From a virus, in the IMG/VR virus record IMGVR_UViG_3300009506_000006, positions 43,866 through 107,865 of that record: a stretch of 64,000 bases of DNA, one strand, 5' to 3'. Below the pieces are notes generated by a model. That model had not been told where the DNA came from. It searched no databases and was given only the letters and a program-made list of their open reading frames with translations. Within the stretch, counting starts at the first letter, position 1; the number at the start of each line of letters is the position of its first letter. Of this stretch, positions 34,001-58,846 are shown piece after piece. The position numbers and the translations under genes are program-made.

Positions 34001-35188
34001 TTACTCCGCAGCGAATTTGTCAATTTGAATCATGCATGCATACGTGGCATGCCGCAGGGCACGCCATGTGAAGTTTTGCATGACATCGGTATTGATACCG
34101 GTTGCGTTGATGTTATTGCTTTCGAACTTGAACCGGTGGAATGTGAATATGTACGTATTACCAGCGATCACACCACCTTCAGATACCCGGAAACTGATCG
34201 AAGACTCCGTACCGGCTGCAAACTTGGTGTACAGATCTTTGTTGGATAAATACAGGTTCATAGACCCGGTTACTTCCAACGCGCCTGCACCGAGATCAGC
34301 ATTACCAAGTACACCAATAGCTTTGAGTCCGCGGATATTGTTATTCAGGGTGAAATCCATACCCTGGATGTATACTCCGGACATCAGACTGCCACCTTCG
34401 CGTACCTGGGCTACGTTAGACACGGAGTTCATGACGTCATTGTTTGTAGCAGTATTGACGGATCCTGAACTCATGGCGCCAGTAGCTACGCTGGTGTCTT
34501 TTCCGATAAATGTCATGTTGCCGGTCAGGATGCTATTGGCTTGTACATTGAACGTCATCTGGTTGACTTTCATGCCGGTAAACTGAAAATACAGCGCTGG
34601 GCTTAAGTCACCGTGATAACGTTCAATCGAGAAAGACCGCTCGGTCGTTCCATTTCGCATCATGCAGGCATTGATTGTAGCGGTGTTATCAGCTGTCGTT
34701 ACGCTGACAGCCGGTGCCGGAGACACCGTGATGTTCTGTGCGGAGGTTTTGGTGGTGATTAGATAATACCCATCATTCAGCGAGTTGGTTGAATTTGCTA
34801 CTTTAATCCACTGGCCAACTGAGAGTGCTGTGAATGGAGAAGTTTCGGATGATGTGATTGTACTGGCGCTGTTGTTGAAGATCAAATCGGCAGTAGCAAT
34901 ACTGATTGAAGACCCCCATGTGGAGAACAGCGCTGCTTGCAGAAAATCATCGAAAGCTGCGTATGACAGCTCGAAGTCAAGACCGCCGCCGCACTCAGCT
35001 CCAGTCTGAACTAAGTCAGATACCATGCGGTCGGAACGAATTTCGTTTGATTGGATGTACTCAATGCCATAGTTTAGAGACTCGGCAGTCAACCGAATCT
35101 CCGTCATATCGGCAGTCGACGGGGTCGTCCCCCAAGTAGCTTCTTCGATATATCGAAGTTGTGTTCTGTTGGCATCAGCTGTGGCCAT
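34001..35188 (-). CDS. Major tail tube protein
   Basis: The protein has 395 residues. ATADANRTQLRYIEEATWGTTP at the start and IRSDRMVSDLVQTGAECGGGLDFELSYAAFDDFL soon after are signatures of the phage tail tube family with TTP fold. The C-terminal part (YIFTFHRFKFESNNINATGINTDVMQNFTWRAL) completes the fold. Immediately upstream are strong hairpins and a GGAAAGGAG ribosome binding site, as expected for an abundant protein. Confidence 0.88.
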   Translation of the reverse strand: MATADANRTQLRYIEEATWGTTPSTADMTEIRLTAESLNYGIEYIQSNEIRSDRMVSDLVQTGAECGGGLDFELSYAAFDDFLQAALFSTWGSSISIATADLIFNNSASTITSSETSPFTALSVGQWIKVANSTNSLNDGYYLITTKTSAQNITVSPAPAVSVTTADNTATINACMMRNGTTERSFSIERYHGDLSPALYFQFTGMKVNQMTFNVQANSILTGNMTFIGKDTSVATGAMSSGSVNTATNNDVMNSVSNVAQVREGGSLMSGVYIQGMDFTLNNNIRGLKAIGVLGNADLGAGALEVTGSMNLYLSNKDLYTKFAAGTESSISFRVSEGGVIAGNTYIFTFHRFKFESNNINATGINTDVMQNFTWRALRHATYACMIQIDKFAAE

Positions 35189-35348: not shown

Positions 35349-37121
35349 TTAGCTGCTTTGAGATGCAACGACTGGCCGAGTCGGCTGCAATCCCAACCTG
35401 CTCATGTTCTGAAACACGTTAGCTGCCAGATTCTGTGCGAATTGTTTGTCCGCACATTGCTGCAAGGCTTGTTGCAGACCCGTTAATGCAATAACGCCCT
35501 TCTCGAGCTGAGTCATGGCCAGATAGTACGCGCACTCACACATAAACTCGGGTCTGAAGTTAAATGTGAAATACCCGTAGCCTTCTTTTTTCTGAGCCAT
35601 TTCCGTATATCTCTGGACGAATTTGGATGCTCCCTCCACGGCGAGTGTATGGTCCTTAGTCGACCGACCCAGATCGAATGCCGCATACATCAGATCCAGA
35701 CTGGTGGGTTCCAGGACCGAGCCGCGATCCAGCCATTCTCTGGCTTTGTCCAGCTTGTTAACTTTCATGTAACGCTTAATCAGCGTGTAATATACAGAAC
35801 GCTGAAATTCGTTTTCAGGGATTATGTCGCGATGCTTTGCGTAGATTTCGGCATACTCCAGACATTTGTCTTCATCGTTAAGCCATCCATGATATTGGCT
35901 TAGATAAAACATCGCTTCGTAATCGTTTGGATTATCTTCCAATCGTTTATTGAGCAGACCCACCGAGCGCTTAAATTTCTTTTTACGCTCTTCAGGACTA
36001 ACGTCGTATCCGTAATGATTGAGTACTAGTTCGACCAGATGCCTGCGTTCACCTTCAACGATTGCTTTGTTATGCACGATGTTAATATAGTGCACGCAGC
36101 CTTTGCGGAATAACCGTGTAGGCGTAAGCGTCGCCATCATTTTTCCGCCTTGGTAATCTCGCAACGCCGGACATATTCCGTTAGCCGTGGTCTCTTTCAG
36201 AAACTTACGGATTTCGTTTGGTGCAGCTCCATCGAGAACCAACTCTTCGTCTGCATCGATCTGAAACAGCCAATTACCAGTACAATATTCCATGCATTTA
36301 TTACGTGCCTTGGAAAAATTGATCTGTGGTCCGAACTCAGTTTCCACGAAATATTCTTTTAAGTTGTCCGGTTGATAAACCCTGGCGCCGAAGTTGCGAC
36401 AGATTTCCATGCTGTTATCGGTTGAACCTGTGTCAAGCACCACCAATTCATCAGCTAATGGCACAATCGACTGCAAACAGCGCGGCAAATTCTTAGCTTC
36501 ATTACGCACGATCATCATGAAGCTGATTTTCACGCCTTTGTGATTGGATTTTTTAACCAGCTTAGCTTCTTTATCGAACAGATCTTTGATCTGGTGCAGA
36601 TGATACATGTACAAACCGGGCATGATATAAAGCTCATAGCCCGCACTGACTAAGCGTTTGTGATAGTCGTTATCGACTCCCATAAATACGTTTTCTGTAA
36701 AGCCATTAACTTTTTCCCAAGCCTCTTTATGCGTTAGAATAAAGAAGCCTGACATTGGCTTGTCTGACTGCGGCTTAATTAACTGTGAACCGTACTGCCG
36801 ATATAACTCATTGGAATATTTAATATGACCGCGGATGTCATCATGAGCACTTTGCGGTGTGAATTTCTGATCATCGCACCAAGTTCGATTCGTTACGCCT
36901 GAGATCCAGCCGGCTTTGTGCCCGACTTGCTCGATGGCGTCCAGGCACATCTCGTACCACTGTGGACGCAGCAGCAAGATATCCGAATCCAGAAACAGCA
37001 CCCAGTCGTCGACTTTGGCCATGGCCTGATTGTACGCCTTGCCGATATTGCCGGGCTCGTACGGAACGATCACATCAATTTTGTGGTCTCTGGCTTTATG
37101 CGAATCAATTTTCCAGGCCAT
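35349..37121 (-). CDS. Tandem GT2 glycosyltransferase with TPR-like tail
   Basis: The protein has 590 residues from ATG 37121 (AAAGG upstream). Residues about 15-200 form one GT-A unit (IDVIVPYEPGNIGKAYNQAMA, then LFLDSDILLL as DxD). Residues about 200-330 form a second GT2 unit (ISFMMIVRNEAKNLPRCLQSI, FQIDADEELV). The remainder is helical TPR-like (NPNDYEAMFYLSQYHGWL). It transfers sugars from nucleotide donors, perhaps to virion proteins or host glycans. The gene has its own operator-type promoter. Confidence 0.85.
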   Translation of the reverse strand: MAWKIDSHKARDHKIDVIVPYEPGNIGKAYNQAMAKVDDWVLFLDSDILLLRPQWYEMCLDAIEQVGHKAGWISGVTNRTWCDDQKFTPQSAHDDIRGHIKYSNELYRQYGSQLIKPQSDKPMSGFFILTHKEAWEKVNGFTENVFMGVDNDYHKRLVSAGYELYIMPGLYMYHLHQIKDLFDKEAKLVKKSNHKGVKISFMMIVRNEAKNLPRCLQSIVPLADELVVLDTGSTDNSMEICRNFGARVYQPDNLKEYFVETEFGPQINFSKARNKCMEYCTGNWLFQIDADEELVLDGAAPNEIRKFLKETTANGICPALRDYQGGKMMATLTPTRLFRKGCVHYINIVHNKAIVEGERRHLVELVLNHYGYDVSPEERKKKFKRSVGLLNKRLEDNPNDYEAMFYLSQYHGWLNDEDKCLEYAEIYAKHRDIIPENEFQRSVYYTLIKRYMKVNKLDKAREWLDRGSVLEPTSLDLMYAAFDLGRSTKDHTLAVEGASKFVQRYTEMAQKKEGYGYFTFNFRPEFMCECAYYLAMTQLEKGVIALTGLQQALQQCADKQFAQNLAANVFQNMSRLGLQPTRPVVASQSS

Positions 37122-37153
37122 GTAATACCTTTCTTCAATTGTTTGATATAAAT

Positions 37154-37181
37154 TTCTTACTTTAGGTAAGATATTACACAA
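37154..37181 (-). promoter_or_regulatory. Operator-type promoter before glycosyltransferase
   Basis: TTGTGT (37181-37176), 16 bases, TAAGAA (37159-37154), with TCTTAC...GTAAGA overlapping the -10 box. The -35 box differs from TTGACA by two bases, so basal strength may be lower. Confidence 0.55.
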
Positions 37182-37205
37182 AAATATGCAATGAATCAAG
37201 ACATT

Positions 37206-37373
37206 TTACGTAGCGATGATTTCTGCACGCGTTTTAGCGATCAGCATTTCTGTGGCTTGTTTCAGTCCGACTTGGTCAACCAGTATATCAAACAGCCGCC
37301 GGTTCTCATCCAGTAGCTGTTGATAGGCTACATTGATACCATTCGGACCGAGCTCTTTACAGTAGTCTCGCAT
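37206..37373 (-). CDS. 55-residue hypothetical protein
   Basis: Read directly: MRDYCKELGPNGINVAYQQL continues to a stop after AEIIAT. GAGG lies nine bases before the ATG and the gene starts four bases after the methyltransferase stop. Helical with two amphipathic segments. It fills an otherwise empty gap. Confidence 0.55.
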   Translation of the reverse strand: MRDYCKELGPNGINVAYQQLLDENRRLFDILVDQVGLKQATEMLIAKTRAEIIAT

Positions 37374-37376
37374 GGC

Positions 37377-38009
37377 TTAAGACCTCATAATAAAAAATCC
37401 GTTGCCACGGTGGTATTCTTTCCAGTTGTCCTTGAACCCGGGGATGTGATAATGCATCTCAATGTTGTAATACCCGCTATCTTCGAATCGCTTCAACCAC
37501 CAGCCCTCTGACTCGGCAATGATGTGCGTGACGTCCTGGTGATACTGCGCAATGCGGTACTTGCCCTGATCTCCGAACGGGACGATAAACATAGCCTGCT
37601 GTGCTTTGTTGCTGAGTTGTCTAAGCACGTCGCATAGAGACTGATATGGAATATGCTCCAGAGTGTCCTTGGCGAACACTATACTAGCTGGTGGACAGTA
37701 TTCAATGTTTTCAAATAAAAATGGCTTGGCATCTGATGGTGCTTTGGAAAGAGCATAACGCGATATATCGATTCCCCAGGCATCGACTGAAAGACAGCGC
37801 AGCGCACGTACCAGGAAACCCTTAGCGCATCCGAAATCAATGACTGATTTGCCGGGGAACATAGCTTTGAGCTGGCGAGCCATTGGCATGGTGCGCTGCG
37901 GCATCCAACGATAGTTTTCGTACAGACTGACTCCGGCTTTAATACCATGCTCGAAATACGTCTGATCAAATCTGCTTCTGTAATTTTTCAGATCGTTATG
38001 CAAATTCAT
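37377..38009 (-). CDS. Class I SAM-dependent methyltransferase
   Basis: The protein has 210 residues. VIDFGCAKGFLVRAL (about 55-69) is motif I, WGIDISRYAL motif II and SIVFAKDTLEHIPY the post-motif IV region of Methyltransf_11/23 enzymes. Its position beside a radical SAM enzyme and sulfotransferases suggests modification of a sugar or small molecule. It overlaps the radical SAM gene by 14 bases. Confidence 0.82.
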   Translation of the reverse strand: MNLHNDLKNYRSRFDQTYFEHGIKAGVSLYENYRWMPQRTMPMARQLKAMFPGKSVIDFGCAKGFLVRALRCLSVDAWGIDISRYALSKAPSDAKPFLFENIEYCPPASIVFAKDTLEHIPYQSLCDVLRQLSNKAQQAMFIVPFGDQGKYRIAQYHQDVTHIIAESEGWWLKRFEDSGYYNIEMHYHIPGFKDNWKEYHRGNGFFIMRS

Positions 38010-38958
38010 TGAATTCAGTTTCCATCAGTAAGTCTTCCAGCAGATCCTGTTGCTTGGAATACTTGCAGTAACTGCAATTATATTGCAGAGCTGTTGGACG
38101 AAGATTACTATAGTATTGAAATATCTCGCTGCTGTGACACAGGCGCGCCTGCGTATTAATTTGCTTATTGTTTTCTACCGCCAACTCCGCACTTGGACAG
38201 GGATATACCCAACCATCGGTGTATAGCGCAGGCTTAATTAGATGAATATAGCAGTTGTTATTGCGGCGTGTCAGTGTGGTATTAAAATCTGATAGGAATA
38301 AATTTGTTGAGTTAACTTGCTGCAGTTTGCGCTTGATGTGCGCCATCTGACGTTTAATTAACTTAGTGTCCATGATGCAGTCGGGTGCTACACGGCAAGT
38401 AATTTGATGTTCATCAGCAAACTGCGCGATTTTTTCAATATTGTCATCCGACAGATCATTCCAGATATAACAAAAGCTGGCTCGGCTGCGATTTTGCACA
38501 GCTTGCACAGCAGATCGTAGATCTTTGGCAGGTCTGTAGTCCAATGTGTTCAAGGATATTCTTACCCAGCTAATGTCATCGAGAAATTCTGCAATGTGGC
38601 TGATTGCGAGCCCGTTAGTGATAAGCCCGATTTTCATTTCGAGCTTGTCAATGAAATAATCTAAACATTTAGCAATATGCGGATACAGAGTTGGTTCTCC
38701 GCCTCCGGTGAGTTCTATGGCACGCACACCTATGTCATGGAACTGTTTCACACCTTCCATATAAACGCTAGGACTGATATCCGTAACTAGATCGCTGCGG
38801 TTTTTGAAACAACAGTGTAAGCAGTTTAGTTGACAGCGATGTGTAGGCATGGTGTGCACCATAATCGGAGACACGCAGCCAGATTGCAGATCTTTGAGCT
38901 TATCCAGATGTTTGAGCAGCTTGGCTGTGTTGGATGTAATGGAATAAGACTGGTTCAT
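37996..38958 (-). CDS. Radical SAM enzyme with C-terminal Cys cluster
   Basis: The protein has 320 residues. RCQLNCLHCC (Cys42, Cys46, Cys49) is the C-x3-C-x2-C cluster ligand set, ELTGGGEPTLYP the SAM-binding GGE motif. C-terminal cysteines (YPCPS, LC, NCSYC) resemble a SPASM or twitch domain holding auxiliary clusters. Such enzymes modify peptides, sugars or alcohols. It lies in a coupled cassette with methyltransferase and sulfotransferase genes. Substrate unknown. Confidence 0.85.
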   Translation of the reverse strand: MNQSYSITSNTAKLLKHLDKLKDLQSGCVSPIMVHTMPTHRCQLNCLHCCFKNRSDLVTDISPSVYMEGVKQFHDIGVRAIELTGGGEPTLYPHIAKCLDYFIDKLEMKIGLITNGLAISHIAEFLDDISWVRISLNTLDYRPAKDLRSAVQAVQNRSRASFCYIWNDLSDDNIEKIAQFADEHQITCRVAPDCIMDTKLIKRQMAHIKRKLQQVNSTNLFLSDFNTTLTRRNNNCYIHLIKPALYTDGWVYPCPSAELAVENNKQINTQARLCHSSEIFQYYSNLRPTALQYNCSYCKYSKQQDLLEDLLMETEFNEFA

Positions 38959-39530
38959 GAATAGTATCTTTCAATAGCTTTGCGCTCTGCTCTAAGTAGT
39001 TTATTGCGGAGCGGCTGGGTTAAACCAGTATCGATATCACGTTCCGTGTCATTGACCAAGACTTCTGGGGCCATGACATCGTATCCCCAAATTCGCAGTA
39101 ATTTGTTTAACTGCGGTGTCAGGTTTTCTTGACGCAAAATATAGTCACAATGTGGTGCGTAATTATCGTATAATTCAGTCACATATCCAGGCCACTTTTT
39201 AATGACATTTTTAATAAATCCTTGGAATGTATCTGACACGCATAGCACATCTAATGGAAAATCATTACGCCAGCTGGTTTTAATACGATAACGATAGTGC
39301 GATCGATACCATTCAATTGGATGTCTGATCGTGCAGAATGTCTCACATTGTTTAAGAATATCTGGCTCGACTTCAAACGGCCGGCAATGAGTTTGTCTTT
39401 GCCATGAGTCTATTACTATTCCGACTTCTTCTGATTTTACTGGCAATCGTTTACGAATTACGTAACGAACATATGAGCCGCCGGTTTTTGGAATGTGAAA
39501 GAACAGTTTATTATCGAATTTAAGCGCCAT
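38955..39530 (-). CDS. Sulfotransferase (family 2-like)
   Basis: The protein has 191 residues. FFHIPKTGGSYVRY (residues 10-23) is the 5'-phosphosulfate-binding loop of PAPS-dependent sulfotransferases and CTIRHPIEWYRSHYRYR the 3'-phosphate-binding region. It would transfer sulfate from PAPS to a carbohydrate or protein. It overlaps both neighbours by 4-11 bases. Confidence 0.8.
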   Translation of the reverse strand: MALKFDNKLFFHIPKTGGSYVRYVIRKRLPVKSEEVGIVIDSWQRQTHCRPFEVEPDILKQCETFCTIRHPIEWYRSHYRYRIKTSWRNDFPLDVLCVSDTFQGFIKNVIKKWPGYVTELYDNYAPHCDYILRQENLTPQLNKLLRIWGYDVMAPEVLVNDTERDIDTGLTQPLRNKLLRAERKAIERYYS

Positions 39531-40059
39531 AATATTCTGACAAGAATTTAATCAGCCGGCTGTTGTATGTATTTGCAATTGCCACACCGCGTTTAATGGA
39601 CATGCTGGGCCGCATGCGCTGCAGGCTTTTAGCGACTTCATATGGATTGCGAAATATTGATATGATATGCAAATTTTGGAGATGCGGCAGGTACAACCGG
39701 ATAGTTAGTGTAGTACGCGGTTCTTTCCAACCCCAGATAGGTTCTCGGGTATTTCTGGCGATAGTGTCAATGATTTCCTGCTTAAACTTTGGATACTGTT
39801 GCAGGATTTTTTCCTCGGCGGGTGGTTGGAATATATTGCCGCCAGCTGCAAACAGGATCCTTTCATTTAGATCTTTAAACTCCAGATTTTCGTAATAACC
39901 CAGAGGATTGGCGATATCACCGGCAAGCAGATGTTCGCCGATATGCACACCAGCTCGCTGCAAACCCAGTCCAACCAAAGACGTCGCGCTTCGGGGCATA
40001 CCAAGCACAACGATAGATTTGACAACGGTTGGTATGTTCTGTGCATCTTCCCCTGGCAC
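39520..40059 (-). CDS. Sulfotransferase-like protein
   Basis: The protein has 179 residues. IVVLGMPRSATSLVGLGLQRAGVHIGEHLL is the nucleotide-binding loop of Sulfotransfer_1/3-like proteins, and IISIFRNPYEVAKSLQRM the second motif. Shorter than full enzymes (usually 250-300 residues), so it may be a minimal catalytic core or a partner of the second sulfotransferase. Confidence 0.75.
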   Translation of the reverse strand: MPGEDAQNIPTVVKSIVVLGMPRSATSLVGLGLQRAGVHIGEHLLAGDIANPLGYYENLEFKDLNERILFAAGGNIFQPPAEEKILQQYPKFKQEIIDTIARNTREPIWGWKEPRTTLTIRLYLPHLQNLHIISIFRNPYEVAKSLQRMRPSMSIKRGVAIANTYNSRLIKFLSEYYGA

Positions 40060-40101: not shown

Positions 40102-40422
40102 TCAATCATCGTACAACCCGTCCATGTAATTATGGATTTTCTTGATCATATATTCCACCAAACCAAGACAGAACAGTGTTGAGTTTTCGCCGAACCAGTA
40201 GTCAAATATATAATTGAATGCCTCATCCTCATTTTCCGGTTCGGCTTCCACAGTGTAAACCATGACGAGATTTTTGACTTTACCTGCATCATAATGATGT
40301 ATCAATAGATCAACTGCGTCATGTACGACTTCGCTGGGCTTCGGTCTCAATTGAATGACGTTGTTCGACTTCTGCTCTGGTTCCTCGCAGCCATTGGACG
40401 AATTCACGGTATTCTCTGTCAT
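40102..40422 (-). CDS. Small acidic protein, last gene of envelope module
   Basis: The protein has 106 residues. A disordered N-terminus (about 30 residues) precedes a mixed fold with KNLVMVYTVEAEPENEDEAFNYIFDYWFG. No membrane segment. It follows the two-segment membrane protein by 36 bases and may be cytosolic. Function unknown. Confidence 0.6.
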   Translation of the reverse strand: MTENTVNSSNGCEEPEQKSNNVIQLRPKPSEVVHDAVDLLIHHYDAGKVKNLVMVYTVEAEPENEDEAFNYIFDYWFGENSTLFCLGLVEYMIKKIHNYMDGLYDD

Positions 40423-40457
40423 AGTTTGTCTCCGTCATACTGCCTGAACGATCTGGA

Positions 40458-41033
40458 TTATTCTTGGCCATTGCTCTTTTTTAGTACCTCGAGTGGATCG
40501 ATAAGTTCGAATTGAATTGGATCCTGTTCCGATGTATCATTCAAACTTCCGTCTTTGCTGGCTTTTTTGTTGCCTTTTTTATTTGACATAACTTCAATCC
40601 AACTACCGCCTACTTTTTTTTGCAGCTTTTGCAAATCTAAAAGCTTTTTATGCAGTTCTCGATCATATGGCAACTTGAATGCACGTGGCTCCATCTTTCC
40701 GGAATACGTATAACGTTTAAATAAATTAAAAACATTGCGTGCCTGCTGTTGATTATCTGGTTTAATATCGCACCAGAAATAAAACGCACCTGGATTTTGG
40801 TTGTCTGGTTCGCTGATTGTCAAAGATATGATACGACTTTTCTCCGGGATCGCTTGCTCTGCCGGCCATCCTTTTAAGTCAGGCAGTGAATAGAAAAATG
40901 AAATTGAAAACCATAGTGCTATGGCTATACCGACACATTTATAAACAATGCGTCCTTTAGAATAAATGACTGACCAGCATAGAAAAAACATTACTAGCAG
41001 ATAGACAAACATGATTGCAGCGGTTGATATCAT
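40458..41033 (-). CDS. Two-segment membrane protein of envelope module
   Basis: The protein has 191 residues. Two N-terminal membrane segments (AAIMFVYLLVMFFLCWSVIY and VYKCVGIAIALWFSISFFYSL) are followed by a soluble domain with strands (SRIISLTISEPDNQNPGAFYFWCDI) and a Lys-rich, then acidic, tail. Its ATG overlaps the ExbD-like stop as ATGA, tying it to the channel proteins. No family recognised. Confidence 0.65.
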   Translation of the reverse strand: MISTAAIMFVYLLVMFFLCWSVIYSKGRIVYKCVGIAIALWFSISFFYSLPDLKGWPAEQAIPEKSRIISLTISEPDNQNPGAFYFWCDIKPDNQQQARNVFNLFKRYTYSGKMEPRAFKLPYDRELHKKLLDLQKLQKKVGGSWIEVMSNKKGNKKASKDGSLNDTSEQDPIQFELIDPLEVLKKSNGQE

Positions 41034-41623
41034 GGGCTTGCAGTTTCCTTGATTATCACCAATGGTTTAAAAGTCGGATCAAACATCATAATATCACCAT
41101 TGGCGTTCATGGTGAACCGTGTTGCTGTTTCTTCTTGCCACTGTGAAGTTAATGTAATGTCTTTGTAGAAAACTGTCGAAAACGACGGATTGATTTTATC
41201 GATCGTTGCGATAACATGAGTGGGCTCTTTTTCGCGTTTGGTATATGCGTGCACATTTAGAGTCCATTCCCCGGGAATAAATCCTCTGATCGTGGTTAAT
41301 TCCTGGTTGCGGGGACATTTTACAACCAAACCGTCCGGCATGATGATAGTATCATTGATATATCCAAGATCGTCTCTGTCGATGTGCGCAAAATTTTTTT
41401 CTAGACGACGAAACCATACAACTCCTCCAAGCGGATCTTCGAGCCAAGTGTCGATATCGTCTGTATTGTCATTTGGCCAAGTTACCGTAATGATATACTC
41501 AGCCTTGTTTTTCATGTTTGCTTTTTGAGTTTGCGGCCGGATTAACATGAAAGATATGCAAAACAAAATTGTTATGCCAAGCAACATGTTAAATAAGAGA
41601 TCTAGAAATCCTGTATTCCGCAT
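41030..41623 (-). CDS. ExbD/TolR-like stator protein with DUF2135-like domain
   Basis: The protein has 197 residues. A single N-terminal membrane helix starts TGFLDLLFNMLLGITILFCI, with Asp8 at the place of the proton-carrying Asp of ExbD, TolR and MotB. The periplasmic part contains ITVTWPNDNTDDIDTWLEDPLGG, reminiscent of DUF2135/YfaP-type beta domains. It replaces the normal TolR/ExbD or OmpA-like domain. It overlaps the TolQ-like gene by 22 bases. Together they probably form a proton-driven unit. Confidence 0.75.
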   Translation of the reverse strand: MRNTGFLDLLFNMLLGITILFCISFMLIRPQTQKANMKNKAEYIITVTWPNDNTDDIDTWLEDPLGGVVWFRRLEKNFAHIDRDDLGYINDTIIMPDGLVVKCPRNQELTTIRGFIPGEWTLNVHAYTKREKEPTHVIATIDKINPSFSTVFYKDITLTSQWQEETATRFTMNANGDIMMFDPTFKPLVIIKETASP

Positions 41624-42072
41624 GACAGCCCCATCTCCAGGTTATAAATTTGAAGCTTGAGCATGAATGAACAGATAAGTCCAGCTGCTGTTGTGTATAG
41701 TGCTGTTCCCATACCATGCGCCATATTTGCAATTGCCGCCTGCATACTATTAATGTTTGCAGCATCGATCTTGCAGAATACGGTGTCCAATGTGAACAAG
41801 AAACCAAACACGGTCCCGATCATACCAAGAGTCACGAACTTTTCAGCAAACCATTTGGCTGTATTGAGTTGACTTGCAGCAGTTGTTTTAATTTGATATG
41901 TTAAGATACCGAGCTGTATAGAGAATATGATAAACAAGGTGAGGATCACGAAGCTGAGCTTTGTTAGATCTGCCTGGTTGACTTTTTCGAATAGGCTGTA
42001 ATAGTACATCAAAAAAAGTCCGACACCTATCATGCACATACAGAGCCACCATTTCAGAAAATATCTTTTCAT
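41602..42072 (-). CDS. MotA/TolQ/ExbB proton-channel family protein
   Basis: The protein has 156 residues and four membrane segments. GMIGTVFGFLFTLDTVF and HGMGTALYTTAAGLICSFMLKLQIY carry the conserved Thr and Gly residues lining the proton path. The large cytoplasmic loop of TolQ is short here. It would pair with the ExbD-like protein encoded next and convert proton flow into movement at the envelope. Its ATG overlaps the ClpP-like stop as ATGA. Confidence 0.88.
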   Translation of the reverse strand: MKRYFLKWWLCMCMIGVGLFLMYYYSLFEKVNQADLTKLSFVILTLFIIFSIQLGILTYQIKTTAASQLNTAKWFAEKFVTLGMIGTVFGFLFTLDTVFCKIDAANINSMQAAIANMAHGMGTALYTTAAGLICSFMLKLQIYNLEMGLSCGIQDF

Positions 42073-42770
42073 GGTTCACCTTCATACGGGACAATGCCAA
42101 TCTCAATAGCACGTTGCATATTGATCCACTCAGTTTTGCGTTCCCATACTTCCCATTGCTCCTTGTCTTTAAGATTGGTTCTGTCCATCAGGATGTTGAA
42201 ATACTGATCACGCAACAAATCAAACAACGCAGTCTGGCTTCTGAACTCAGAGCTTGATCCTTGAAGAGACGAACTTGCTTCGTGTATCATAAATACCGTG
42301 TTTGCAACCGCTGTGCGATTATCGAACGCTAGGAACACAGGAACCGCGGCACTGGCAATAAGACCGTTGGCGATAGCATGAAATTTAAAACCGTCCTTTT
42401 GGGCTTGTTGAATCAAACCGTACAACGCGAAGCCGACAAAGGCACTGCCTCCATACGAGTTGATAAACACTTCTGCTTCCGTAATGCCTTTAAGTTTTAA
42501 AATCGAAATATCGTTCCAGAAATCTTTATCTTCGAAGTCTAAATTATCGTAGATTTTCATGAACGCTTTGTCATTTGCAATGAATGTCATGCTCGAGAGC
42601 TTTGCTTCAAGCGGATCTTTTTTGCATTCGCATTGCTCCGATGTCGCATCTTTGTCGGAAGTTTCAGTTTCGTAAACTGTGAATAAGCCTCGATTCGCAG
42701 CATCAGCATGACCGTCGTGAACAGTCATCAAACATATAACGATCGATAATGCCAACAATGTCGTTTTCAT
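42069..42770 (-). CDS. Exported ClpP-like protein
   Basis: The protein has 233 residues with a Sec signal peptide (MKTTLLALSIVICLMTVHDGHA). The ClpP fold is clear: FINSYGGSAFVGFALY (oxyanion strand), Ser140 in NGLIASAAVPV and His163 in MIHEA. The third residue of the triad, Asp in normal ClpP, appears as Thr in KTEW. ClpP is cytoplasmic and needs AAA+ partners; this one would act in the periplasm. It is the first gene of the envelope module. Confidence 0.82.
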   Translation of the reverse strand: MKTTLLALSIVICLMTVHDGHADAANRGLFTVYETETSDKDATSEQCECKKDPLEAKLSSMTFIANDKAFMKIYDNLDFEDKDFWNDISILKLKGITEAEVFINSYGGSAFVGFALYGLIQQAQKDGFKFHAIANGLIASAAVPVFLAFDNRTAVANTVFMIHEASSSLQGSSSEFRSQTALFDLLRDQYFNILMDRTNLKDKEQWEVWERKTEWINMQRAIEIGIVPYEGEP

Positions 42771-50468: not shown

Positions 50469-51206
50469 TTATTCAATTACGTCAACTAGTCCCCAAACTC
50501 TGGCTTGATCCGCATCGAACCAAGTTGTTTTGGTTTCCAGTGCTTCCCACTGGTCTTTCGACAATTTGGAATTTTGTACCAATTTGCCGATATAGCGGTC
50601 GCGTAGCAGTCCCATCAGCTCGTTCTGCGACCGGATATCCGAGGCGGTTTCACGTCCCGGCCATTTCCACAGAGCAGCTTCGTGCACCATGAAAATCGTT
50701 CCGGGTGCGGCCAGGCGATTGTTGCATACAGCAAATACCGGAACTGCTGCGCTGGCGATAATGCCGGACGCATGGGCCGTGACACGAAATCCCTTACGCT
50801 GTGCACGTTCTATTTCGTCGGCTAATGCCAACCCTGAAAACGCATCGCCTCCAGATGAATTGATAAATAAATTGATATCCCGAATGTCAGTCATGTGATA
50901 CAGATAGCATAAATCGTTCCATAGACGCGTTACGTCAGCAACCGACAACCCGGAAAAAATCTTGACAAAGGCTTGATCCTTGGCGATGAAAGACAGTTGA
51001 GACAAAGACCCTTCCGGATTGGGAACCTCCATTGATTTGTTGATTTTTTGACTTCCGCTATCAGTGGAACTGACTTCAACATTGGCAGGTTCGCTGGCTT
51101 GGACCTTGACGATGACTTCTTGCGGTTGACGTTTTTGAATCGGAACAGTTGCCGCACATCCCACAAATAGACACAATGCACCGATAAAGATAATGAGTTG
51201 TTTCAT
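50469..51206 (-). CDS. ClpP-like lipoprotein
   Basis: The protein has 245 residues. MKQLIIFIGALCLFVGCAAT is a lipoprotein signal with Cys17. A 45-residue linker precedes a ClpP-like domain: FINSSGGDAFSGLALADEI, Ser152 in SGIIASAAVPV, His175 in MVHEA. As in its paralogue at 42069-42770, Thr stands where the catalytic Asp is expected (KTTWFDADQA). It would be tethered to the membrane and act on periplasmic or envelope proteins, or has lost activity. Confidence 0.82.
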   Translation of the reverse strand: MKQLIIFIGALCLFVGCAATVPIQKRQPQEVIVKVQASEPANVEVSSTDSGSQKINKSMEVPNPEGSLSQLSFIAKDQAFVKIFSGLSVADVTRLWNDLCYLYHMTDIRDINLFINSSGGDAFSGLALADEIERAQRKGFRVTAHASGIIASAAVPVFAVCNNRLAAPGTIFMVHEAALWKWPGRETASDIRSQNELMGLLRDRYIGKLVQNSKLSKDQWEALETKTTWFDADQARVWGLVDVIE

Positions 51207-51232: not shown

Positions 51233-54200
51233 TTATTTTATAGTTACTCCGTTAAATAGTACACCCGAGCTTGCTGAGTCCCACCACTCGCATGCTCCAG
51301 TATCGATAGTGTGCCATGGTTCTTTACCGTAATAATCGGTTTGCCCCGAGATTCCGGTTGGGGTTCCAGCGTCAACGCTTGGATCGGTGGATGAATCGGA
51401 GCAGTAGTTCGAGTCAAGAGAAGGATTGGCGGATGCCTCGTCTGATACTATAATTTCAGCGGCACTTTCTCCGTTCCACGCGCTTATGGAAGTATAGTCC
51501 ACAGAATTTGATGTCCATTTGGGGCTGGCCATTCCATAATACAAATTGTGGTTGAACGTATTCGCCCCTCCGTCGCCAGCATCAGCATCCACAAAGACGT
51601 AGTAATCCATCTTGTCGCCCCAGATGATATTATTTATGATGGTATTACTATCGGTCCCCGCGTCTGCGACCCTGATGCCATAGTCATCGTATCCAACACG
51701 TCTATCAACTGTATAGATGATTGTATTATTTGCAATTATATTCGATGCATCCCGCAAATGAATTCCTGATACAGACGGGTTTTTAATTATATTTCCGTAT
51801 ACATTAAAATTCTGCGAATTAATGGTCAAACCATATCCATTGCCGACATGATCTACTACAGCACCTGGATTTTCAACATAATTCCTTGCAACCTCTCCTG
51901 ACGTGGCATAAATCACAGATATTCCGCCTTCGCCGGAATTCACGACGCTGTTATCGGTTATATTTACCGTCCCGCCTTCTGTTTCTGATGCAGTCACAAC
52001 TATTCCAAGATCACCGTAGCCTCCACTGCAAATATTTATTGTGTTATTTGTTACGGACACTGTCGGTGCTACGGTATTGGGACTAAGATCAAGATCGATG
52101 CAATCAGTACTATATGCAGGACAACTGCTGCCTTCCGTTGATATAGTGTTATTATTAACAGATATGGAAGTTATATTGCCTACTGACCATCCTTTAATAA
52201 CGTAATTGTTTCCCCAATCTCCAACAAAAGTATTGTTGTCTATTACTGCTGTGCCAGAATAGACAATAGCCATATTTCCATTATTGGTGAATGTGCTGTT
52301 CTTTAATTGATGCCCAGTTCCATAAAACATTACTCCGTTATTTGTGTTTCCGGAAAATTCACACCCATCTATCACTACGTTTTCATGGGCAGCGTTCGAA
52401 AGGGAGACGGCGTAGTTTGTAGAATTCTTTATTGCACAGTCATTTAGTTCAAAATCATTTACCGGATCGACTGAAGCCGCGAACACCAGTGCCTGAGTGT
52501 TTGTCTTATTATTCGCATCGAACTCAATACCTTCGATATGCCAATAATCGCAACTGTTGAACGTAATAAAAGTTGTTCGGTCTGTGCTTAGTTTCAGAAT
52601 GGGACGTGCGCCAGATCCATATGTAGTAACAGTAATGGGATTTAGTGCTGTCCCGTCTTTATCCACATAAGCGTCGTAATCTTCAGTGAAGGTATCTCCC
52701 TTGTTGACATGAAGTTTATCCCCAGCACTTAATGCGTCAAATGCGTTGTGGAAATTGTTCCAGGCATATCCGGCACCTTCTCCGCAGAGCTGTCCTGTGC
52801 CGTCACCATTGCTAGCGCAATATCGGAGATAATAAAGTGCCTGCCATTCGCAAGCACCAATATCAATAGTGTTTACAATCGGATTTTCATAGTAATCTGT
52901 CTGTCCACTGATTCCCGTTGGAGTGCCAGCATCAACACCGGGATCGGTGGGGGAGTCTGGGCAATAACCGGAAAGGGATGGATTGCTTAGAAATGAGTTG
53001 GTGGTATCTTGGCTGCTTGCAGATTGCCACTCTGACAAATCGTCTATGTCAGTAGTCGCGCCCCAGGTCCAGTTATCGTCTCCATCTCCTCCGTAATAAC
53101 CATTGGCATTGATGTTTCCTGCAGATGGCTGATGATTTGCGGAAGCTGCCGAAACGTATTGAGCATCTAAATCGCTGTCGTCTAAATAGACGATATTGTT
53201 TTTCGCAACCGTACTTGAACTTCCGTAAGATTCAAATTTAATTCCAACTTCGTATATGTTGATTAGAAGATTATTATATATCGACACCGCTCCAACATAG
53301 TAAGTTCCATTTTGTCCATATAAATCAAAGCCATTCGGTGCGCCATCCACTACGTTATTATGGAAGACGTTACCACTCATAATATCGCGGCCATTATCTA
53401 AATCATAACAATACAGAACAAACCCTGCTTTCCGTGACGAAGCGGCTGCTTCAATCACGCTGGCTTTGTTTCTTCTCCAGATTCCATTTGTCCCACCAAC
53501 TATCCAGAATCCACTTTTGCGAGCGTTAATAACCGTGTTGTCTTCTACAACCACTCCGGTTTGTGCAGCATCCAGGTCCGTAACGATCCCCGTATCACCA
53601 CAATTTCCCGTAATGTTCACAGTGTTATTTTTGACGGTAAAACTTGTTGACGGCGTCTGCGAGACATTAAAAGATACTTCAATACCGTCGCAGTTCCCGT
53701 TAGGGCTTGACAGGTCGTTATCATCTAAGACAATTCCATTCCCGTATACCTGCGTCAGGTGGATGCCGTACCCACTGCAATCATAGCATGAATCATCTTG
53801 CGGATCAGTTGTTGTCGCACTTCCGGTTATTGGGTCCGTAATTGTTTCAGCGTTATCGAATTCACCAGATTGACTTTTTAGATATAACGTCCCCGATGTT
53901 CCGTTATCTACCTGCGCTACTATCGTAGCACTTGCTCCGGAAGAACTTCCGGTTACGGTTTGACCAACCGTAAAGTTTCCATTAGGTTCTTCCGCTTGCA
54001 ATTCAAAAGCTAAAGACGAATACCAGCCCCATCCCGTAATTGTGTTTCCAATGACTGTGGTATTCGGGACGTTGCCACTTAATACAATGCCTTTGCCGCA
54101 ATCCGTGGCAATATTGTTGCTGACTGTGGCACTGCTTGCCATATTTTGAAGACGCGCACCCTGCAAGCAATTCGTGAACTGGTTATCGTCTATCAGGTTT

Positions 54201-54706
54201 GTGCCGCCCCCTGTGGCTGTAATTGCCAGAGCGTAGGCATACCCGACATAGAAATTCTGAAACGTACAACTCTGGACCGTAACATTGCTGGTCGTTCCAG
54301 TTATAATCAGGCCCTGTCCATTTCCGCCGGTTATACCCGATCCATCAAACGTGACATTATCCCAAATCGTGGTGGTTCTGTTTGTAACTTGAGCCGTATA
54401 ATTAATGCTTCCAACTCCACTGATCTGCCCATTTTGCCATTTTTGATTATTAGCCTGGACGGTCAAGATAGAATCGGCATCAAGTTCTACTCCAGAATAG
54501 GTACAATCACATAGATCAAAAACATTATCTGCCCCGAGTGTTGAGGATACTGCTTCTAAATCGGTCGCTCCAGTCCACGAACCTTCGTAAGAGCATGACG
54601 TGCTGTTATACTCAACGTTGCTTGCGCCGTCGCGGATATAGTATGTCGCTCCCCACCCATTAGCGGCAAATAGCAGGATACCTAATATGTAGATATATTT
54701 TCTCAA
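51233..54706 (-). CDS. Secreted double beta-helix protein
   Basis: The protein has 1157 residues. Signal peptide MRKYIYILGILLFAANGWG. Two tandem right-handed parallel beta-helix modules, each ending in a similar segment (DAGTPTGISGQTDYY...IDIGACEW at about 600 and 1135), with many NNT, DNN and NGI-type turns. Related proteins bind or cleave polysaccharides. No catalytic triad can be named. The C-terminus GVLFNGVTIK differs from the tag on the two preceding proteins. Confidence 0.78.
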   Translation of the reverse strand: MRKYIYILGILLFAANGWGATYYIRDGASNVEYNSTSCSYEGSWTGATDLEAVSSTLGADNVFDLCDCTYSGVELDADSILTVQANNQKWQNGQISGVGSINYTAQVTNRTTTIWDNVTFDGSGITGGNGQGLIITGTTSNVTVQSCTFQNFYVGYAYALAITATGGGTNLIDDNQFTNCLQGARLQNMASSATVSNNIATDCGKGIVLSGNVPNTTVIGNTITGWGWYSSLAFELQAEEPNGNFTVGQTVTGSSSGASATIVAQVDNGTSGTLYLKSQSGEFDNAETITDPITGSATTTDPQDDSCYDCSGYGIHLTQVYGNGIVLDDNDLSSPNGNCDGIEVSFNVSQTPSTSFTVKNNTVNITGNCGDTGIVTDLDAAQTGVVVEDNTVINARKSGFWIVGGTNGIWRRNKASVIEAAASSRKAGFVLYCYDLDNGRDIMSGNVFHNNVVDGAPNGFDLYGQNGTYYVGAVSIYNNLLINIYEVGIKFESYGSSSTVAKNNIVYLDDSDLDAQYVSAASANHQPSAGNINANGYYGGDGDDNWTWGATTDIDDLSEWQSASSQDTTNSFLSNPSLSGYCPDSPTDPGVDAGTPTGISGQTDYYENPIVNTIDIGACEWQALYYLRYCASNGDGTGQLCGEGAGYAWNNFHNAFDALSAGDKLHVNKGDTFTEDYDAYVDKDGTALNPITVTTYGSGARPILKLSTDRTTFITFNSCDYWHIEGIEFDANNKTNTQALVFAASVDPVNDFELNDCAIKNSTNYAVSLSNAAHENVVIDGCEFSGNTNNGVMFYGTGHQLKNSTFTNNGNMAIVYSGTAVIDNNTFVGDWGNNYVIKGWSVGNITSISVNNNTISTEGSSCPAYSTDCIDLDLSPNTVAPTVSVTNNTINICSGGYGDLGIVVTASETEGGTVNITDNSVVNSGEGGISVIYATSGEVARNYVENPGAVVDHVGNGYGLTINSQNFNVYGNIIKNPSVSGIHLRDASNIIANNTIIYTVDRRVGYDDYGIRVADAGTDSNTIINNIIWGDKMDYYVFVDADAGDGGANTFNHNLYYGMASPKWTSNSVDYTSISAWNGESAAEIIVSDEASANPSLDSNYCSDSSTDPSVDAGTPTGISGQTDYYGKEPWHTIDTGACEWWDSASSGVLFNGVTIK

Positions 54707-56492
54707 TTACTCGTAACTCCTGTTCGATATATACCGGTCATGGTTGCAGGAATTGGAGGTTCACCGTCTCCTGGGTTTCCTTCAATGACTCCTTCTATCG
54801 CAGCATTGAGCAAGTCTATATCTGCGCCCAAGTCCTCGCTATCCGTTCCAGCGTTCAGATAGGGACTACCACTGTCTAAATGGTAATCACCACTGCCATC
54901 CGCCTGATAATTCACAAATTGAATTGCAGCGACATTTTCTGGTGTTGTAACTCCTTGTGATGGATAACCCGATGCAGGCCATCCAACAGCGGCATTTTTT
55001 GTGCATGACCAACCAGAATCCTGGCCACCGGGATAGGCAGCGTTCAGTGAAGCAGTCCCAGCAACCGAACCGTCTGCTTTGATCCCGTACGTACCCATAT
55101 CTACGGTAATGTTATTAATAAAATCAAAACCATCAGCGCTGCTCTCATAAAGATACACCAAACGATTGCCGACATCATTGATGACCGTATTATGGTTTAC
55201 GATTGTATCATTCACAGTCAGATTTTGTAAAAATATTCCGTTGCCGAGTGAGGTATTAATCATAAAAAGATTGTCGTGAAAATTAACACGTTCCATCGCT
55301 ACCGACGTATACGCGCCGGCCTTTGGTGTTATGTTAATTCCAAAACTCACATTAAGAATCTTGTTATATCGTATTGTCCAATCAGCAGATTCGGCCCAGT
55401 TATTGTTTCCTCCTTGATTTTCGCTTTTAAGGCGTATCGCATTATCCTGCACGTCAGCCCAGCAATTCTGGATGACGTTTCCTTCCACCAAGACCCTCTT
55501 GGCCATTTTGCTTTCAATGACATTTACGCAATTCCAGTGCGCTCCATCCCACGACAGACGCTTGAATAAATAATTTTTTGTTATCGTAATATCAGATGGA
55601 ATCAAGTCTGAGGCTTGGTTATCGGCTCCACCAAAAAAGATATTCATGCCACAAGCCTCAATAAAATTATTATAGATCAAAATCGGTCCGGATGTATTAT
55701 ATGCCCACACGCCCTGATTATCCACATCCGCTTTGATATTATCTATATAGCAGTTTATAACCGCTCCATAGGACACATCGAAACCCAAAGCTCGGGTTGT
55801 ATAATACTCCTCATCAAGAGCGTGAAAATAGCATCTATCTATTGTTATATAGGTAGATTGGTTCGAAGAAGTTGTATTATTAAAACCCATCCACACCAGA
55901 CTTGAATGGGATGAACTTCCTGGGGGCATAAAAGCGATACCTACTAATCGGTAGTGGTGTGAATTTAGGGCAGAAGTCATGCATTTATACCCAGAGCTTC
56001 CGGAAGTTGGTTTTATGGTTGGCATATTAGACACATCGGAAGGGGAAACCCGTACTCCTTCTCCCGGCAAACTCGCAAGAGCGCTCGATATTATGTAGAT
56101 CCATCCTGAACCAGAACTTTTGTTTGGCAGAACATAGCCATTGTCAGATGCTGGCGCTGTATAGCTCGATCCGGCTGTCAGAATTATAACATCATTTAAT
56201 TCCGAATTTGTCAGAGCATATAAAAAACTGCACCCCGTTCTATTGCCTTCTCCGGTGCCAGGCACACTACTACTTGACGTATTAGAGGCTGTCCAGGTGT
56301 TTCCAGTGGGCAATGAATATGTTGTATTCACTTCCAATTGCGGAAGTGTTGCAGAAGTCGCTGTTGCAGCACTGGATATACTTGGAAAGACTAATACAAT
56401 TATAAAAAGTAATGTATAGATATATTTTCTCAATTACTCGTAACTCCTGTTCGATATATACCGGTCATGGTTGCAGGAGTTGGAGGTTCACC
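54690..56492. repeat. 76-bp direct repeat at gene junctions
   Basis: 54690-54765 and 56417-56492 differ at one base. Each copy covers the start of one beta-helix gene (MRKYIY) and the end of the upstream gene (PATMTGIYRTGVTSN). The gene between the copies (54703-56433) is therefore flanked by homology, like an exchangeable cassette. Confidence 0.85.
54703..56433 (-). CDS. Secreted beta-helix protein with C-terminal tag
   Basis: The protein has 576 residues. Signal peptide MRKYIYTLLFIIVLVFPSISSA, then a right-handed beta-helix (ITIDRCYFHALDEEY, VEGNVIQNCWADVQ, NLTVNDTIVNHNTVI). It ends in PATMTGIYRTGVTSN, shared with the upstream gene. The tag may be an export, anchoring or binding motif. Overlaps both neighbours by four bases. 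Confidence 0.78.
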   Translation of the reverse strand: MRKYIYTLLFIIVLVFPSISSAATATSATLPQLEVNTTYSLPTGNTWTASNTSSSSVPGTGEGNRTGCSFLYALTNSELNDVIILTAGSSYTAPASDNGYVLPNKSSGSGWIYIISSALASLPGEGVRVSPSDVSNMPTIKPTSGSSGYKCMTSALNSHHYRLVGIAFMPPGSSSHSSLVWMGFNNTTSSNQSTYITIDRCYFHALDEEYYTTRALGFDVSYGAVINCYIDNIKADVDNQGVWAYNTSGPILIYNNFIEACGMNIFFGGADNQASDLIPSDITITKNYLFKRLSWDGAHWNCVNVIESKMAKRVLVEGNVIQNCWADVQDNAIRLKSENQGGNNNWAESADWTIRYNKILNVSFGINITPKAGAYTSVAMERVNFHDNLFMINTSLGNGIFLQNLTVNDTIVNHNTVINDVGNRLVYLYESSADGFDFINNITVDMGTYGIKADGSVAGTASLNAAYPGGQDSGWSCTKNAAVGWPASGYPSQGVTTPENVAAIQFVNYQADGSGDYHLDSGSPYLNAGTDSEDLGADIDLLNAAIEGVIEGNPGDGEPPIPATMTGIYRTGVTSN

Positions 56493-58226
56493 ACTTGTAT
56501 ATTCGTATGCTCCGATATCTGGATTGGAACCCACGAGTAATATTGTGTCGTAATCATTGAACGAGGCATAGAGGGTCACTGCCGCACCGTTGGACCACGC
56601 GCTGAGGGAAGTATCTAATGACAGGGTTCCGGCCGGTTCGGTGCCGTAGCTTATTCCGGTGATCTTCGCTGTTTCTATTCCACTATTTGTTATCACCGCA
56701 ATTTTGTCACCGACCCCATAAGAGGTGCCGAACTTAGAGTTCCACTCAGTCGCCCAATATGAATACCAGAAAAATCGAGCATCAGCTACCGCAATGCTCG
56801 ATCCGGATGATGCACTCGTCGCGGTCGTTAGCCATCTTCCGGCATTTATCAAACAAGAGGAAGATTGTAGCGTAAAATCTGGAGCATCGGGGTCAGTATC
56901 AGGATCTACAAATTTAGGATCGAGTCCCGAACATCCAGTTGAATTGTGAATGTTCTGGCTCCATGCTGATGGATAACTACTTTCTACTGATGCCACCGTG
57001 ACCATTTCATTCGCATTTATAATTGCTCCGCCGTCCTGCCATCCACTACTATACCCCATAAAGAAATTATTTTTAAACTCGCTCTCTCCGAGACTATCGG
57101 GATAATGCAATGTAACCTCTCCAGCATCCCAATCGTCTCCATAGTGTTGTGAGTTTTTGGCCCATACGTTATTATAAAATTTGTGGTAAATAGTTATATT
57201 GTTATTCCAAAAATGTAGGCCTGCTTGGTCATTGTACCAAAATATGTTATTATACCACCTGTTGGATTCTCCTGTGTATTGATCACAGCCATAAGATCCG
57301 TTATCACTTCCCCCATAAAAATCCTGTGAGCAGTGATGGCCGACATTGTAGCGAATAACATCATGAGACGATCCATAAATTAATATTGGAGATTTTTGAT
57401 GGTTTACCGGACCCTGGTTCATTCCAGTACCGATATTTCGTTCAACCAGAGTTTCATCGGCTTCTATGCTACTCAGATAGCCAATGCCATAACTCACATT
57501 ATTGGCTATCACCTCATTATTAATTCCCGCGCTGCCACTCCCATATATACTGATATTGTCGTGACAGCCTTTTGATAAAGTGTTATTTGATATGCGCGAA
57601 TATCTGCCAAACACTGATATGCCATAGCCAGTGTATCCATCTACGTCGCAGATCCCAACACCTTCCACTTCGTTGTCGTGAACATATGAATAGTCCCCAA
57701 AGATGCAGATGGCAGATTGTACCCATGTAAATGACCAACTATCATTTACACCAATAACCGCACAGTTTTTTATCTCTATATAATCTCCATTGCCATTGGC
57801 GTAAATTCCATAACCAGTTTTGTTTGTACCAGTAGGTCTAAGTTCAATTCCGTCTATTACCCAATATGCGTTCTGGATATTAAATACTCCATCATATGTC
57901 CCGCCAGTACTCATGGTCCTAAATATAGGAGGGCCATAGGTTTCGGTTTGCCATGCTTGGATCGTTATTCTATTGACGGCGGTTCCGCTTGCAGCCGAAG
58001 TAAATTTATCAGTAGTATCGGTATATACCCCACCCCTTACATGCAGCGTTTCCCCTGCACTGAGAAGCGAATCCACATAACCGAGCGTCAGACACGGATT
58101 CGCAGAATTTTGGCAATCGTTTTCAGTATCCGTGCCGATCGGAGACATGTATATGTCATTCTGCGCGAAAACGCGTAGTGACAATAGTAGAAAAATTAGA
58201 AAGATAAAAATTATGATTTTTTTCAT
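56430..58226 (-). CDS. Secreted beta-helix protein with C-terminal tag
   Basis: The protein has 598 residues. Signal peptide MKKIIIFIFLIFLLLSLRVFA. DIYMSPIGTDTENDCQNSANPCLTLGYVDSLLSAGETLHVRGGVYTD is the usual entry to a parallel beta-helix (DUF1565-like), followed by repeated strand-turn units. It ends in the same PATMTGIYRTGVTSN tag. Likely a secreted polysaccharide-binding or degrading protein. Confidence 0.78.
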   Translation of the reverse strand: MKKIIIFIFLIFLLLSLRVFAQNDIYMSPIGTDTENDCQNSANPCLTLGYVDSLLSAGETLHVRGGVYTDTTDKFTSAASGTAVNRITIQAWQTETYGPPIFRTMSTGGTYDGVFNIQNAYWVIDGIELRPTGTNKTGYGIYANGNGDYIEIKNCAVIGVNDSWSFTWVQSAICIFGDYSYVHDNEVEGVGICDVDGYTGYGISVFGRYSRISNNTLSKGCHDNISIYGSGSAGINNEVIANNVSYGIGYLSSIEADETLVERNIGTGMNQGPVNHQKSPILIYGSSHDVIRYNVGHHCSQDFYGGSDNGSYGCDQYTGESNRWYNNIFWYNDQAGLHFWNNNITIYHKFYNNVWAKNSQHYGDDWDAGEVTLHYPDSLGESEFKNNFFMGYSSGWQDGGAIINANEMVTVASVESSYPSAWSQNIHNSTGCSGLDPKFVDPDTDPDAPDFTLQSSSCLINAGRWLTTATSASSGSSIAVADARFFWYSYWATEWNSKFGTSYGVGDKIAVITNSGIETAKITGISYGTEPAGTLSLDTSLSAWSNGAAVTLYASFNDYDTILLVGSNPDIGAYEYTSGEPPTPATMTGIYRTGVTSN

Positions 58227-58846
58227 TGCAAGGTATACAAGGTAAATTGAGCATCACGATCTTGGTCTACACCACCGTAAAATGCGTCGTACGCTGTGGT
58301 AGCATAGCAAGTCGTGGTTAGCGTTGAGTTCCAAAGCAATTCGGCTGGGCTTGCAAATGCCGTTACTAAATGGATGAAATAATTTCCGCTTGGGTCCGGA
58401 TATTCGTGTCCCGTTGTATTATCCCAAGTAAAGACTTTTTCTGTGCAAGGACTTCCGTTGCTTACATCTATATCATTGCTATTTCCTCCATATTTAGTCC
58501 CTGTCGCGTTAATATCGGACCATATTTCTATGTGAGTAGTTATCGTTGATTCGTAGTAGCTTGCGAGCCAATAAGTAATTTTACAAATTTGTATGGCACT
58601 TGCGTTGTTTATTGCCTGTCCCTTTGGTAATGCACCGCCTCGTTCTCCGCTTGATCCACAACCCGACGCATCGATGAGTAGGGTACAGGTTAGCTCTGGT
58701 TCTCCGCCAGGGGGAGGACCTGTTATCAGAATAAACGCAGCAGCGTTCGGGGTTAATGCTGGCAGCTTGTCGGGTGGAGGACTGTAGCCAAGCGCAAACC
58801 CGGTTATCGCACAGACAAAATAGAATATTAAGATTTTCTTTAGCAT
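58223..58846 (-). CDS. Secreted Cys-containing protein
   Basis: The protein has 207 residues. Signal peptide MLKKILIFYFVCAITGFALG, then a Pro-rich linker, then a beta-sandwich-like domain (AIQICKITYWLASYYESTITTHIEIWSDINATGTKYGG) with several cysteines suitable for disulfides, which fits periplasmic or extracellular location. Function unknown. Confidence 0.65.
   Translation of the reverse strand: MLKKILIFYFVCAITGFALGYSPPPDKLPALTPNAAAFILITGPPPGGEPELTCTLLIDASGCGSSGERGGALPKGQAINNASAIQICKITYWLASYYESTITTHIEIWSDINATGTKYGGNSNDIDVSNGSPCTEKVFTWDNTTGHEYPDPSGNYFIHLVTAFASPAELLWNSTLTTTCYATTAYDAFYGGVDQDRDAQFTLYTLQ

Follow-up and report, generated by a model that had tools for sequence, protein, structure and literature searches.

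A conserved three-gene set with a MotA/TolQ-family channel subunit in a phage tail operon and on proteobacterial chromosomes

What is a channel subunit of the MotA/TolQ/ExbB family, together with a stator-like partner and an exported ClpP-like protein, doing inside the tail operon of a phage? The question is raised by a window of 64,000 nt (the whole stretch of DNA analysed), which corresponds to bases 43866–107865 of a viral record of 107,865 bases. An earlier note on this DNA had described five coupled genes as a phage-encoded envelope module. ORFs A–D were found as listed below (window coordinates), with a further ORF downstream and a paralogue of A at a distance.

42069–42770, minus strand: A, exported ClpP-like protein, 233 aa, head of the operon (Pfam, PHROG, alignment to PDB ClpP, N-terminus)
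41602–42072, minus strand: B, MotA/TolQ/ExbB-family channel subunit, 156 aa (Pfam, PDB profile match, hydropathy, conserved residues)
41030–41623, minus strand: C, stator-like subunit, 197 aa (AlphaFold, conservation across 87 sequences, phage and chromosomal homologues)
40458–41033, minus strand: D, two-helix membrane protein, 191 aa (AlphaFold, homologous neighbour of C)
40102–40422, minus strand: E, ORF of 106 aa, 36 bp downstream of D (no relatives)
50469–51206, minus strand: lipobox-bearing paralogue of A, predicted lipoprotein (178 aligned residues, 44 % identity to A)

Locus layout and setting in the tail operon

A–D form a tightly coupled run on the minus strand (42770–40458), with overlaps of 4 bp (ATGA) between A and B and between C and D, and of 22 bp between B and C. 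The coupling described for five genes thus stands for A–D but does not extend to the fifth, which is separated from D by a gap and has no relatives. ORF E (40422–40102) gave no Pfam match and no PHROG match better than 0.02, and counterparts are absent at the other loci examined that carry B, C and D (hereafter the triad); it therefore probably lies outside the module. A 50-aa ORF at 40471–40319 overlaps both D and ORF E.

Upstream of A lies a tail terminator gene (phrog_179, 9e-26). Downstream, tail genes resume at 34001–35188 (phrog_290, ‘minor tail protein’), with five further cargo genes in between, so that the described position between tail terminator and tail tube applies in outline only. 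The intervening genes (35349–40059, minus strand) encode a glycosyltransferase, a methyltransferase-like protein, a radical SAM protein, a weak second sulfotransferase-like protein and a sulfotransferase. As the module and the cargo run both sit between the tail terminator and the next tail gene, we read them as a cargo island within the tail operon. A structural tail role for the module was rejected, because in other phages the triad lies among replication genes and it is also found on chromosomes.

Protein A matches CLP_protease in Pfam (1.7e-14) and the head maturation protease family in PHROG (4e-25), and its N-terminus reads as signal-peptide-like. When aligned to PDB ClpP, the Ser and His of the catalytic triad align, and the Asp column is occupied by Trp. 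The product of 50469–51206 carries a lipobox (LFVGC) and an export signal, yet likewise matches head maturation protease families. Although the signal-peptide ClpP-like protein does head the operon in the window, it is not a conserved part of the module: a ClpP-like protein as an essential component was rejected, given that next to the triad other phages encode a trypsin-like protease, a different exported protein or no protease at all.

Other exported products are encoded elsewhere in the window. Five genes in a run at 51233–59235 (minus strand) encode products with signal-peptide-like N-termini, namely a beta-helix protein of 1157 aa, two unknown proteins of about 580–600 aa, a protein of 207 aa and a fibronectin-III protein of 129 aa, which is unusually much secreted protein for a phage. 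Additionally, a small predicted lipoprotein (18033–18539, minus strand) weakly resembles the Cor superinfection exclusion family, through its N-terminal part only (E 0.006).

Three conserved membrane proteins

Searches with profiles of B, C and D recovered the order B-C-D at 81 of 87 loci. Of the remaining six, three are situated at contig ends, the genes are ordered B-D-C in one, and the last two, L041 and L042, are overlapping contigs without D. This recurrence excludes a chance grouping, which the earlier note had proposed to infer if the set were absent from related phages. A five-gene conserved module was rejected; the conserved unit is B-C-D, neither the five genes nor a unit that includes ClpP. 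Variants of the triad include a tandem duplication of D (L090) and the B-D-C order (L207).

Protein B matches Pfam MotA_ExbB (PF01618) at 6.4e-7, above the cut-off, and the profile of its family matches MotA (8gqy, 3e-7, the best PDB match), ZorA (4e-7) and TolQ (2e-3). On this profile evidence, B is a homologue of the MotA/TolQ/ExbB superfamily. The TolQ/MotA-family assignment made earlier is thus confirmed, as is the retention of the conserved Thr and Gly positions: Gly83, Gly86, Gly90 and Thr128 are kept in B, and across homologues Gly86 is found in 84/84 and Thr or Ser at position 128 in 84/84. Hydropathy indicates four hydrophobic segments and almost no cytoplasmic domain. Chromosomal B proteins have 207–271 residues in most loci, whereas phage copies have about 130–165 and are without the cytoplasmic loop. 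The window copy is closest to those of small-genome, low-GC alphaproteobacteria (39 %), followed by those of phages L043–L045 (34 %). A tblastn search with B gave zero phage matches, as the protein is too short and divergent; it was recovered only by gene order plus profile.

The AlphaFold model of C (pLDDT 89.5) has an N-terminal helix (residues 3–28) with a beta-sandwich behind it. The membrane Asp reported at residue 8 lies inside this helix; 83 of 85 aligned homologues retain it, the other two being without a membrane Asp. Within the beta-sandwich, W49, D56, D58, D84, G87, E108 and G118 are invariant across 87 sequences, and the acidic residues among them might serve as metal ligands. The family to which C belongs is less readily named. 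No significant match to ExbD, TolR or MotB families was obtained in Pfam or NCBIfam, and MotB_plug matched only 1 of 21 members of the C family (E 0.24). Likewise, no OmpA-like peptidoglycan-binding domain was found by family searches, including PADLOC, and the modelled beta-sandwich differs from one. The periplasmic part is therefore, as had been noted, unlike TolR, ExbD and OmpA-like domains. The DUF2135-like domain that had been assigned to it was not borne out; DUF2135 (PF09906) matched 1 of 21 family members at E 0.08, which is near-zero statistical support. A fold search of the PDB with C gave nothing at E<=0.001; the best fold candidate, TTHA1873 (7wwo; probability 0.97, TM 0.31), was rejected as insufficient for assignment.

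Protein D, which the earlier note had not singled out, is the third conserved member of the triad and the defining gene of the set. Its AlphaFold model (pLDDT 75.8) comprises helices at residues 2–24 and 29–53 and a small alpha/beta C-terminal domain, which is predicted to be periplasmic since the loop between the two helices is positive. The PDB fold search with D returned nothing at E<=0.001, and neither C nor D has an NCBIfam or PADLOC family or a Pfam match at a meaningful score.

Distribution on chromosomes and in phages

The module had been taken as phage-specific, and this did not hold: the same triad is a widespread chromosomal system in alpha- and gammaproteobacteria. Profile searches of the classes of two named MAGs (L020 and L012), with E-values calculated per genome, detected C in 33 of 274 gammaproteobacterial and 40 of 289 alphaproteobacterial genomes sampled, or about one in eight. 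When GTDB genomes were scanned, the set was recovered from marine Gammaproteobacteria as well as from other Pseudomonadota MAGs. Chromosomal triads are nearly all single copy, Azospirillum brasilense having two complete triads on one large replicon. Translations read by eye place them next to the housekeeping genes glnS, birA, coaX, apt and sfsA, and next to acpS in one high-GC genome.

Several further genes surround the chromosomal triads. A lipoprotein gene is found near them, usually straight after D, and most of its products are weakly DUF3108_like (loci L085, L086, L089, L092–L094, L096 and L097); this lipoprotein is a candidate outer-membrane partner of the chromosomal triad. No outer-membrane partner was identified in phages. 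At some gammaproteobacterial triads, an exported DUF302 protein is encoded upstream of B, in L087 (by Pfam) and in L088 and L090 (by BLAST relatedness), and a VWA-FHA protein is encoded downstream of D in L087.

Amongst 50,697 named phage records, tblastn found C in 27 (26–27 depending on the search), all from rhizobial phages of unrelated kinds: 16-3 and its relatives (about 60–69 kb), the 68-kb RHph_N3_19 group, a group of about 155 kb, of which AF3 and RHph_Y68 belong to the Pootjesviridae, and the 171-kb RHph_I1_18. The phage C genes are all annotated as hypothetical (‘p040’ in 16-3), and the adjoining genes are B- and D-like; in phage 16-3 of Sinorhizobium meliloti the triad is p038, p040 and p042. 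Single-protein searches of viral contigs with B and C returned nothing, and closer sub-alignments were required; scans of IMG/VR then gave 27 records, partly overlapping the named phages. B-C-D is thus a recurrent group in phages, but ClpP is not common to it. In the rhizobial phage loci L005, L006 and L009 homing endonucleases (GIY-YIG, HNH) and unrelated small ORFs lie between the triad genes, and the gene order survives. Triad carriers include both temperate and apparently lytic phages; T4-like and 68-kb rhizobial phages have it amid replication/middle genes, not lysis genes.

In a tree of 74 C sequences, window C has a long branch inside a chromosomal clade (support 96/85) and is placed away from both phage clades, the 16-3-type and the T4-like/68-kb. 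It stands next to L046, a join that the program flagged as unsafe. The 16-3-type phage copies cluster with L102, a chromosomal copy from an alphaproteobacterium, and the starred branches of the tree require two label changes or more. BLAST identities of window C are 41–47 % to the best chromosomal copies versus 24–30 % to those of rhizobial phages. The triad thus appears to be a chromosomal system of bacteria, captured more than once by phages. Given the position of C inside a chromosomal clade and apart from other phage clades, the window copy appears to derive from a chromosomal branch.

Comparison with known motors and possible functions

As in TolQ-TolR and ExbB-ExbD, a channel fold that retains the conserved Gly and Thr is combined in the triad with a membrane-Asp partner. 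Unlike in these systems, B shows four hydrophobic segments, C is without an ExbD/TolR match, and a beta-sandwich replaces the small TolR/ExbD domain; no TolA, TonB or Pal-like gene was found beside the triad. The four hydrophobic segments and the best PDB profile match recall the MotA-MotB flagellar stator, but phage B has no torque-generating cytoplasmic domain, C has no OmpA-like domain, and no flagellar genes were recognised near the triad. ZorA-ZorB of the type I–III Zorya anti-phage motors likewise pair a MotA/TolQ-family channel with a one-helix membrane-Asp partner, and the B profile matches ZorA structures at 4e-7. Zorya requires a peptidoglycan-binding domain, the ZorA tail and an effector (PMC11890865). 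The triad, in contrast, is without an OmpA-like domain, a long cytoplasmic tail or ZorC/D/E, has the two-helix D and is phage-borne. Membership in Zorya, ExbBD or TolQR was rejected on these defining features. A 2025 survey of MotAB homologues describes non-flagellar members as generic ion transporters that have many unassigned domains (PMC12505986), and the triad would belong to this broad class. DUF2135 is unmentioned in the text of that survey, and no description of the B-C-D set, of the D subunit or of carriage by phages was found. Likewise, no earlier account of a phage-encoded TolQ/ExbB or of B-C-D was found in the open-access literature, in keeping with the earlier remark that no phage system of such composition had been described.

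We give somewhat better than even credence to the reading that B-C-D is a proton-driven inner-membrane motor of chromosomal origin, captured by phages, with its output in the periplasm. B would be the channel and C the axle of a motor of the MotAB/ExbBD/TolQR superfamily, with D as an obligate third membrane subunit and the beta-sandwich of C (with D) as the working end in the periplasm. The 5:2 stoichiometry, the proton flow and the direction of output are presumed in this model, in which force or signal would emerge in the periplasm via C and D. Phage B has next to no cytoplasmic part, so that the output, unlike that of Zorya, probably lies in the periplasm or at the outer membrane. The lack of a significant ExbD/TolR/MotB match for C and the two homologues that lack the Asp count against the motor reading.

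The window phage would carry the triad as cargo in its tail-operon island, along with the exported ClpP-like protein. The most likely use, put forward tentatively, may be to change the infected or lysogenic cell’s envelope in a way that blocks delivery of a second phage’s DNA. It is ranked ahead of interference with a host triad, and then of cooperation with a protease and lysis, because the triad is cargo, has temperate and apparently lytic carriers, is set among replication genes in several of them and would face the compartment that incoming DNA crosses. The late (tail) operon position in the window counts against this explanation. A review of superinfection exclusion mentions neither TolQ, ExbB nor proton motive force (PMC11436027).

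It is doubtful, though conceivable, that the phage copy acts instead as a substitute or dominant-negative decoy, its subunits mixing with or displacing host B-C-D and so redirecting or disabling an envelope function. The chromosomal occurrence of the triad in many alpha- and gammaproteobacteria, the grouping of 16-3-type copies with L102, the two triads of A. brasilense and phage B as a shortened version of chromosomal B would all suit such a role; yet phages bear the full triad with Asp and Thr intact, and a poison subunit needs one gene only. A joint device, in which the motor formed by the phage triad delivers or activates an exported serine protease (ClpP-like or trypsin-like) in the periplasm, seems unlikely. 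A trypsin-like protease gene precedes B in many triad phages, often adjoining it, and a Trypsin_2 domain is found anywhere in the genome in 20 of 25 triad phage records; where the protease sequence was read, its N-terminus is signal- or TM-like. At the same place, the window has A, and L043–L045 have an exported protein that is ClpP-fold-like by eye (NCBIfam only E 0.09). As a control, 25 long relatives of the 16-3 terminase were used, of which 2 have the triad and 15 the protease. Within the 16-3 group the protease is present in 14/14 phages with the triad versus 13/23 without it (Fisher 0.006, a value that relatedness inflates), so that co-occurrence is suggestive and the link weak. An obligate protease-motor unit was rejected, since the 13 of 23 triad-negative relatives that retain the protease, mostly at the same locus, undercut the 20 of 25 and indicate that the protease has a role of its own. 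In 12 triad-negative loci that were read, the protease is present and a gene of about 411 aa, which elsewhere follows the triad, lies close behind in most. As triad-free 16-3-like phages keep these two genes close together, the triad appears to be a gain/loss cassette beside a resident protease. Furthermore, the protease lies about 73 kb from the triad in two T4-like phages, neither protease family has a match in RHph_I1_18, and the chromosomal triads examined showed no recognisable protease gene.

A lysis module, in which a proton-powered device and the exported protease would break the outer membrane late in infection in place of spanins, is a poor prospect. The late operon position in the window, the periplasmic orientation of all parts and a lysozyme gene 3–4 kb away in two rhizobial phages would fit it; the replication/middle-gene setting in T4-like and 68-kb rhizobial phages does not, close relatives of 16-3 manage without the triad, and a chromosomal origin suggests a compatible rather than lethal activity. 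A Zorya-like defence sensor borne by the phage against competitors is the most improbable of these readings. B does match ZorA models weakly (PADLOC ZorA3, 3.5e-6; NCBIfam ZorA_4, 4.5e-4), but no ZorC, ZorD or ZorE neighbour is present: the genes tested around the window triad are ClpP-like, sulfotransferase-like, radical SAM, glycosyltransferase-like and tail protein genes, none a Zorya effector. With C lacking a peptidoglycan-binding OmpA-like domain and B, at only 156 aa, lacking the cytoplasmic tail, Zorya membership is largely refuted, in agreement with the earlier note’s own observation that ZorC, ZorD and OmpA-like parts are missing.

Flagella, nutrient uptake, outer-membrane constriction, gliding and Zorya defence are all powered by ion-driven motors of this superfamily. 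One more motor family, found in roughly one in eight of the alpha- and gammaproteobacteria sampled and with two subunits unknown to Pfam, would represent a gap in envelope biology. The system is genetically tractable at once, since all named phage carriers are rhizobial, phage 16-3 has the triad, close relatives are without it at the same site, and A. brasilense offers two copies. If the motor reading of B-C-D holds, phages would carry working proton-driven envelope motors, an undescribed family, common on proteobacterial chromosomes, taken up several times by unrelated phages and controlling the envelope of the infected cell, a proposition that we consider about evenly balanced.
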